From Myxococcaceae bacterium (GTDB lineage: Bacteria > Myxococcota > Myxococcia > Myxococcales > Myxococcaceae), in NCBI GenBank assembly GCA_019694575.1, contig JAIBBR010000039.1, forward strand, positions 1-38,716: DNA of 38,716 nt. Direction: 5' to 3'. Position numbers and translations under genes: made by a program. The notes below the pieces were generated by a model, which made no database searches, had not been told where the DNA came from, and saw only the letters and a program-made list of their open reading frames with translations. Positions 149-932 of the stretch are shown one piece after another. The first letter of the stretch is position 1. The number at the start of each line of letters is the position of its first letter.

Positions 149-865
149 TTAGGCCGAAGGCGTGTTCGGCGCCACCTGTGGAGCAGAAAGGCTGGCGGCA
201 GGCCCACGCGGAGCACTTGGCGATGCTGCCTTGCGCCCTTCTTTATGGCCTTCTTTGTGCTCGGCGTCGTCGTGATCGCGGTGATGCCGGTCGGCCTTCT
301 CTTTTTCCATCTCTTGCACGTGCACGCGATGCGCGTCGCGCGCCTTCTGCGCGATCTTGGGGTTCGGCCCAATGGTCATCGACATCGCGCGCCCTTCGAG
401 CTTGGGCGGCACTTCAATGACCGCAATGTCTTTCACGTCGGTGGTCACATCGTCGAGCACCTTGGTGCCCAGCTCGCGGTGGGTAATTTCGCGGCCACGA
501 AACATGATGGTGACCTTGGCCTTGTTGCCTTCTTCAATCGCCGCGCGAATCGCTCGAAGCTTGGTGTCGTAGTCGTGATCTTCGGTGCGGGGGCGCATCT
601 TGTATTCTTTGATTTCGACGCGGTGCTGCTTCTTCTTGGCGTCGTTGGCCTTCTTCTTTTCTTCATACTTGTAGCGCCCGTAGTCCATGATCTTGCAGAC
701 CGGGGGCTTGGCCATCGGGTTGATTTCAACCAGGTTGAGCCCAGATTCCTGGGCCTTGGCCAAGGCTTGATCGATGCTCAAAACTCCCAACTGCTCACCC
801 GCGGCTCCGACAACGCGGACCTCACGTGCGCGAATACGGCGGTCCGTTCTTTGATCGCGAATGAT
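149..865 (-). CDS. infC: Translation initiation factor IF-3, ATC start, long charged C-terminal tail
   Basis: IF-3 binds the 30S subunit, keeps the subunits apart and proofreads start codon and initiator tRNA. The N-domain (after the start, IRDQRTDRRIRAREVRVVG; then the LNLVEINP and PPVCKIMDYGRYKYE segments), the lysine-rich linker and the C-domain (MRPRTEDHDYDTK, VTIMFRGREITH) are all present. The start is decided by the sequence: between the in-frame stop at 895-893 and the conserved N-terminus there is no ATG, GTG, TTG or CTG, only ATC (865) and ATT (862) behind AAGGAGG at 880-874. ATC has the better spacing (8 nt) and gives 238 residues; the first TTG (790) would remove 25 conserved residues. 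AUU/AUC/AUA starts are a hallmark of infC and allow IF-3 to limit its own translation. About 55 residues beyond the usual end form a His/Asp/Glu/Lys then Ala/Pro/Ser tail, as reported for M. xanthus Dsg. Confidence 0.96.
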   Translation of the reverse strand: MIRDQRTDRRIRAREVRVVGAAGEQLGVLSIDQALAKAQESGLNLVEINPMAKPPVCKIMDYGRYKYEEKKKANDAKKKQHRVEIKEYKMRPRTEDHDYDTKLRAIRAAIEEGNKAKVTIMFRGREITHRELGTKVLDDVTTDVKDIAVIEVPPKLEGRAMSMTIGPNPKIAQKARDAHRVHVQEMEKEKADRHHRDHDDAEHKEGHKEGRKAASPSAPRGPAASLSAPQVAPNTPSA

Positions 866-873
866 AGGAACTT

Positions 874-880
874 CCTCCTT
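874..880 (-). promoter_or_regulatory. infC ribosome-binding site
   Basis: AAGGAGG is a near-perfect anti-16S match. It lies 8 nt before ATC (865) and 11 nt before ATT (862), which favours ATC as the infC start. A strong site compensates for a poor start codon and is what makes the unusual start believable. Confidence 0.75.
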
Positions 881-904: not shown

Positions 905-932
905 AACATACAGACGACTACCTAAGAGTCAA
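905..932 (-). promoter_or_regulatory. Candidate sigma-70 promoter of infC
   Basis: On the minus strand TTGACT (932-927) is separated by 16 nt from TATGTT (910-905). Transcription would begin near 898, leaving an mRNA leader of about 33 nt before the ATC start. The -35 matches 5 of 6 consensus bases and the -10 matches 4 of 6. This was assigned by eye. Confidence 0.4.

Follow-up and report, generated by a model that had tools for sequence, protein, structure and literature searches.

A conserved AUC start codon in the initiation factor IF3 gene of a member of the Myxococcaceae, and the two types of infC found among its relatives

The infC gene and its surroundings

The window, by which we mean the whole stretch of DNA analysed here (38,716 nucleotides, contig JAIBBR010000039.1), carries close to one end of its contig a minus-strand infC gene, the parts of which are collected in Table 1. 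Its product is translation initiation factor IF3, as the match to TIGR00168 (218.9 bits against a cut-off of 60) extends over model positions 4-169 of 170, and it is the one infC gene found in this organism's own assembly (5.28 Mb, 99% complete). Upstream the gene has a short region to itself, with spoVG in divergent orientation, and the contig stops 148 bases past its end, which is most likely why rplT was not found in the assembly. The IF3 C-terminal tail in the relatives is likewise long and highly variable, at about 25 to 120 residues, being charged and then Pro/Ala-rich.

Table 1. Parts of the infC locus, in coordinates of the window
Feature	Position	Strand	Remarks
infC coding sequence	149..865	minus	238 codons from ATC, plus stop at 151-149; TIGR00168 218.9 bits
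IF3_N domain (PF05198)	641..844	minus	residues 8-75
IF3_C domain (PF00707)	362..619	minus	residues 83-168
C-terminal tail, 70 residues	152..361	minus	charged and His-rich, then Pro/Ala/Ser-rich; present but variable among relatives
ATC, proposed start codon	863..865	minus	homologous codon conserved in relatives
ATT, codon 2	860..862	minus	unlikely as alternative start; homologous column mostly GCN or GTN
Shine-Dalgarno (SD) AAGGAGG	874..880	minus	8 nt between GG and ATC; complementary to own 16S 3' end
In-frame stop TAA	893..895	minus	9 codons separate TAA from ATC
TTG, first canonical-type codon in frame	788..790	minus	residue 26; a start there deletes 25 residues, including 18 of IF3_N
Promoter-like TTGACT-16-TATGTT	905..932	minus	consensus match only

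After the in-frame TAA the frame reads N A V F K E E V P and then I I R D Q R T D R R I R, so that the whole runs from NAVFKEEVP through IIRDQRTDRRIRAREVRVVG to the stop at 151-149. ATG, GTG, TTG and CTG are all absent in frame between this TAA and the conserved IF3 core, the first of them being the TTG at 790-788, and the SD pairs with the organism's own 16S 3' end, GGATCACCTCCTTTCT (L121). A first-pass annotation of this DNA had read these features in the same way, and its minus-strand coordinates for the in-frame stop, ATC, ATT and TTG, its 8 nt spacing after AAGGAGG and its statement that none of the four codons precedes the core were all exact. It had also proposed that infC begins at ATC, and that an automated caller would take the TTG instead and lose 25 residues; the TTG is indeed the first codon that standard callers accept, and the gene is likely to be mis-called in its own genome and in many relatives. 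The AUC start of this infC is real and is conserved across the order. Since self-limitation of IF3 through a rare start codon has long been known, this is no new type of system; what this analysis usefully adds is the order-wide conservation of the start and the pattern seen in the two paralogues.

The start codon among relatives

The 5' ends of infC were collected from relatives in the family, order and phylum, together with named contigs. Whichever ATC, ATT, ATA or CTG with an SD came first, no more than 26 codons from the core, was scored as the start, and one gene whose SD failed this rule (L020) was placed by alignment. With the sequences lined up on the proposed start, 21 of the 22 family genera have ATC as the homologous codon and the remaining one has CTG, while over the 97 infC copies of the order the start column contains ATC in 85, ATT in nine and CTG in three, and AUG in 0/97 genes, whichever paralogue is considered. 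Copies with no ATG, GTG, TTG or CTG between the stop and the core make up 27/66 in the family, 14/31 in the rest of the order and 8/27 in the rest of the phylum. When the in-frame codons with the best SD spacing were tallied without bias in the family, ATC came up in 39 and ATT in five (44/66), more than chance given a background of about 5% for these two codons. Two adjacent spacing windows gave 41/66 and 10/66, as expected because a three-base window must match the real spacing.

Control genes from the same loci have ATG or GTG at the homologous start in every case (rplT 29/29, prs 9/9, spoVG 7/7), and in the same-locus comparison infC has no ATG, GTG or TTG there in 27/30. As a positive control, the annotated infC of Escherichia coli, read in the same way, gives GGAGG followed by ATT. 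Sequence conservation in the infC alignment sets in at the ATC, and nothing upstream of it is shared by the family except a C at -1 and -3 and an SD block of purines spanning -13 to -8; conserved coding sequence upstream of the stop, named in the first-pass annotation as evidence that would count against an ATC start, did not appear in this alignment. Comparative sequence thus shows the position of the start, its non-canonical identity and its conservation.

Certain relatives depart from this picture. Many named Polyangia-type relatives have an infC with an ATG or TTG start, and therefore the non-canonical start is dispensable within the phylum. Some infC genes of family f5, taken here to be Anaeromyxobacter-like, have an ATG two codons 5' of the ATC, only 3 nt from GGAGG, and their starts are ambiguous.

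Several smaller observations were made on these genes. CTG, another non-canonical codon, is the homologous start in L006 (G016) and in the Anaeromyxobacter-like L177 and L181. AGA codons in the family infC genes are concentrated near the 5' end, 80/88 falling within the first 20 codons, with Arg otherwise mostly encoded by CGN. Outside the order, infC genes with no canonical start near the core and an ATT after a good SD occur in Bdellovibrio-like sequences (L067, L073, L075, L076, L078), in Marinimicrobia (L098, L100) and in a sequence labelled Planctomycetaceae (L103), and the same arrangement, with ATC, occurs in Coxiellaceae (L034, L037).

Proposed autoregulation by IF3 and competing readings

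Non-canonical starts in infC have been published before. The E. coli gene starts at ATT and its autoregulation by IF3 is well documented, while that of Streptomyces starts at ATC, with automated calls being usually wrong (PMC5472188); AUA was identified in Staphylococcus aureus from ribosome profiling (PMC13009471), and ATT in Xanthomonas has mass spectrometry support and is the sole possible start (PMC5559785). The E. coli system resembles the one described here in its IF3 gene, its GGAGG SD and an AUN start that IF3 discriminates against there and probably here; rpmI-rplT lies downstream in E. coli, as rplT does in relatives of the window gene. The E. coli codon is AUU and the gene lies directly after thrS, whereas the window gene has AUC and a short upstream region divergent from spoVG. 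Going by its published description (PMC5472188), Streptomyces has the same start codon in the same gene, although in a distant phylum. The S. aureus and Xanthomonas genes are non-canonical like that of the window, with both codons and phyla differing.

By analogy with the E. coli and Streptomyces work, IF3 autoregulation would be the natural mechanism for the window gene. IF3 destabilises and rejects start complexes formed off AUG, GUG or UUG, so that when plentiful it would suppress initiation at the AUC of its own gene, and when short relative to 30S subunits it would allow AUC initiation to rise, forming a homeostatic loop. It is very probable that infC here is translated from the AUC at 865-863, set by the near-perfect SD, and IF3 would then probably discriminate against its own AUC in such a loop.

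The competitor that survives best, though unlikely, accepts the ATC start as real and denies it a regulatory role, the codon being tolerated owing to the strong SD and retained by history. Polyangia-type relatives live with ATG, as this reading would have it, and the ratio of ATC to ATT tracks codon usage: at 85:9 in the start column it is the same as among the ordinary Ile codons within infC (601:57). Base composition is therefore enough to account for the choice between the two, and the information lies solely in ATG being absent. Against it, AUG is one mutation away and yet is found in none of the 97 order genes, although three have CTG; a start that drifts among AUC, AUU and CUG and never arrives at AUG is what would be expected if discrimination by IF3 matters. 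Moreover, a passage of PMC5559785 citing Butler 1987 states that in E. coli a change from AUU to AUG abolishes infC autocontrol. The Polyangia-type relatives on AUG, set against genomes in which each of two IF3 genes begins with AUC, provide a natural contrast.

Initiation at the next codon, ATT 862, would be a start of the E. coli type, and this codon adjoins the ATC and lies 11 nt after the GG of the SD, but we regard it as very unlikely. Its column contains GCN or GTN in the other operon-type genera (mostly Ala or Val), whereas the ATC column is fixed, and in those genes of the second type discussed below (dsg-type) that have only ATT CTT (L202-L205), the ATT occupies the ATC column. Initiation at TTG 790, giving an IF3 without its first 25 residues, has in its favour that a standard caller would find it acceptable; it would strip 18 IF3_N residues (8-25) that are conserved in the protein of all relatives, with only a weak GAG nearby as SD, and its probability is negligible. 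With the ATT 862 column not conserved and a start at TTG 790 cutting into the IF3 domain, ATC 865 is the start. A sequencing or assembly error that erased an upstream or local ATG might be suspected in a draft assembly with infC near a contig end, but can be virtually dismissed, as the same ATC occurs independently in dozens of genomes, including the single-contig genomes of L109 and L197.

A start upstream of the ATC was considered and rejected, given the unconserved upstream sequence and the stops directly 5' in relatives. These precede ATC in L011 and L030 (TAG, one codon between) and in L023 (TAG, two codons between), and ATT in L117 (TGA, one codon) and L110 (TAG, four codons), which makes an upstream start impossible in those relatives. 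The ATC start proposed in the first-pass annotation accordingly fits all the comparative evidence, and upstream, ATT 862 and TTG 790 starts do not.

As for the leader, the promoter-like match (one found, with 0.3 expected in shuffled sequence) would correspond to a 5' leader some 30-35 nt long. A search of the whole window against Rfam gave no match, so that neither the L20 leader nor any other known leader was recognised, and when folded the infC leader of the window was no more stable than shuffled sequences (z +1.0 and +1.5). A mini-hairpin in which the SD of the window pairs with the spacer (AGGAG-GAAG-UUCCU, -4.4 kcal/mol) had the look of occlusion but was rejected as a conserved feature, since across operon-type genes it does no better than shuffled spacers, 138/300 of which were at least as stable. 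A start-codon hairpin, AUCG-NNCG-CGAU, is possible in 34/43 genes, mostly because the codons involved are common; enrichment is confined to GAT at codon 4 (21/43 vs 97/478), which ordinary A/T selection near starts explains equally well. With no unusual folding, Rfam family or conserved SD occlusion found, the start codon and the strong SD make the simplest regulatory element.

Operon-type and dsg-type infC

The infC genes of these bacteria fall into two types. At each of the 29 loci from relatives that make up the first set (L003-L031), rplT follows the operon-type gene, and in relatives sharing the spoVG-prs context rplT is present after infC in the same orientation. The dsg-type gene forms a separate clade with 100/100 support, has a longer N-terminus and is unlinked to rplT. 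The window gene lies outside the dsg clade, on a long branch of its own whose exact place is unsure; its N-terminus is short, and the dsg-type N-terminal sequence (IIREQRSSRGGS before RDQRTN), which one genus of the family carries, is absent from it. The window infC is the operon-type gene, probably the copy in the infC-rpmI-rplT position, and therefore a close paralogue and not an orthologue of dsg.

The M. xanthus dsg/infC gene (MXAN_0581) belongs to the same family as the window gene and shares a C-terminal extension, of 66 aa against 70 aa in the window, but differs in its longer N-terminus, its own clade and its lack of linkage to rplT. The 66-residue extension of M. xanthus InfC has been reported as essential for development (PMC2129111). 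In two Myxococcus-like genomes (L214 in G103, L215 in G022) rpmI-rplT occurs without infC upstream, and the sole infC is a translocated dsg-type gene that lies megabases away. An AUC start for M. xanthus Dsg was reportedly published in work from 1994. The first-pass annotation had invoked this comparison, which holds for the codon, the dsg-type infC of a Myxococcus-like genome (L109) beginning ATC ATT CGC GAA CAG, and has to be qualified for the gene, that of the window being operon-type and outside the dsg clade.

In seven genomes that carry two copies of infC, ATC is found on both. It is possible, though doubtful, that the operon and translocated dsg-type IF3 genes of the Myxococcaceae are both held to AUC/AUU and that each is repressed by the summed IF3 pool, with the window lineage representing the single-copy state. 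If this were true, repression by the summed pool would cross-couple the housekeeping IF3 and the developmental Dsg.

Finally, a separate observation concerns the 60 nt before the start. A 7-bp hairpin, GGCCUGU/C ... RCAGGCC, for which no common counterpart was found in operon-type leaders and which is absent from the window, is shared by most dsg-type leaders (L105-L109, L192, L195, L198, L200-L209). It ends about 13-17 nt 5' of the SD and shows paired changes (UA, UG, CG) at one pair.
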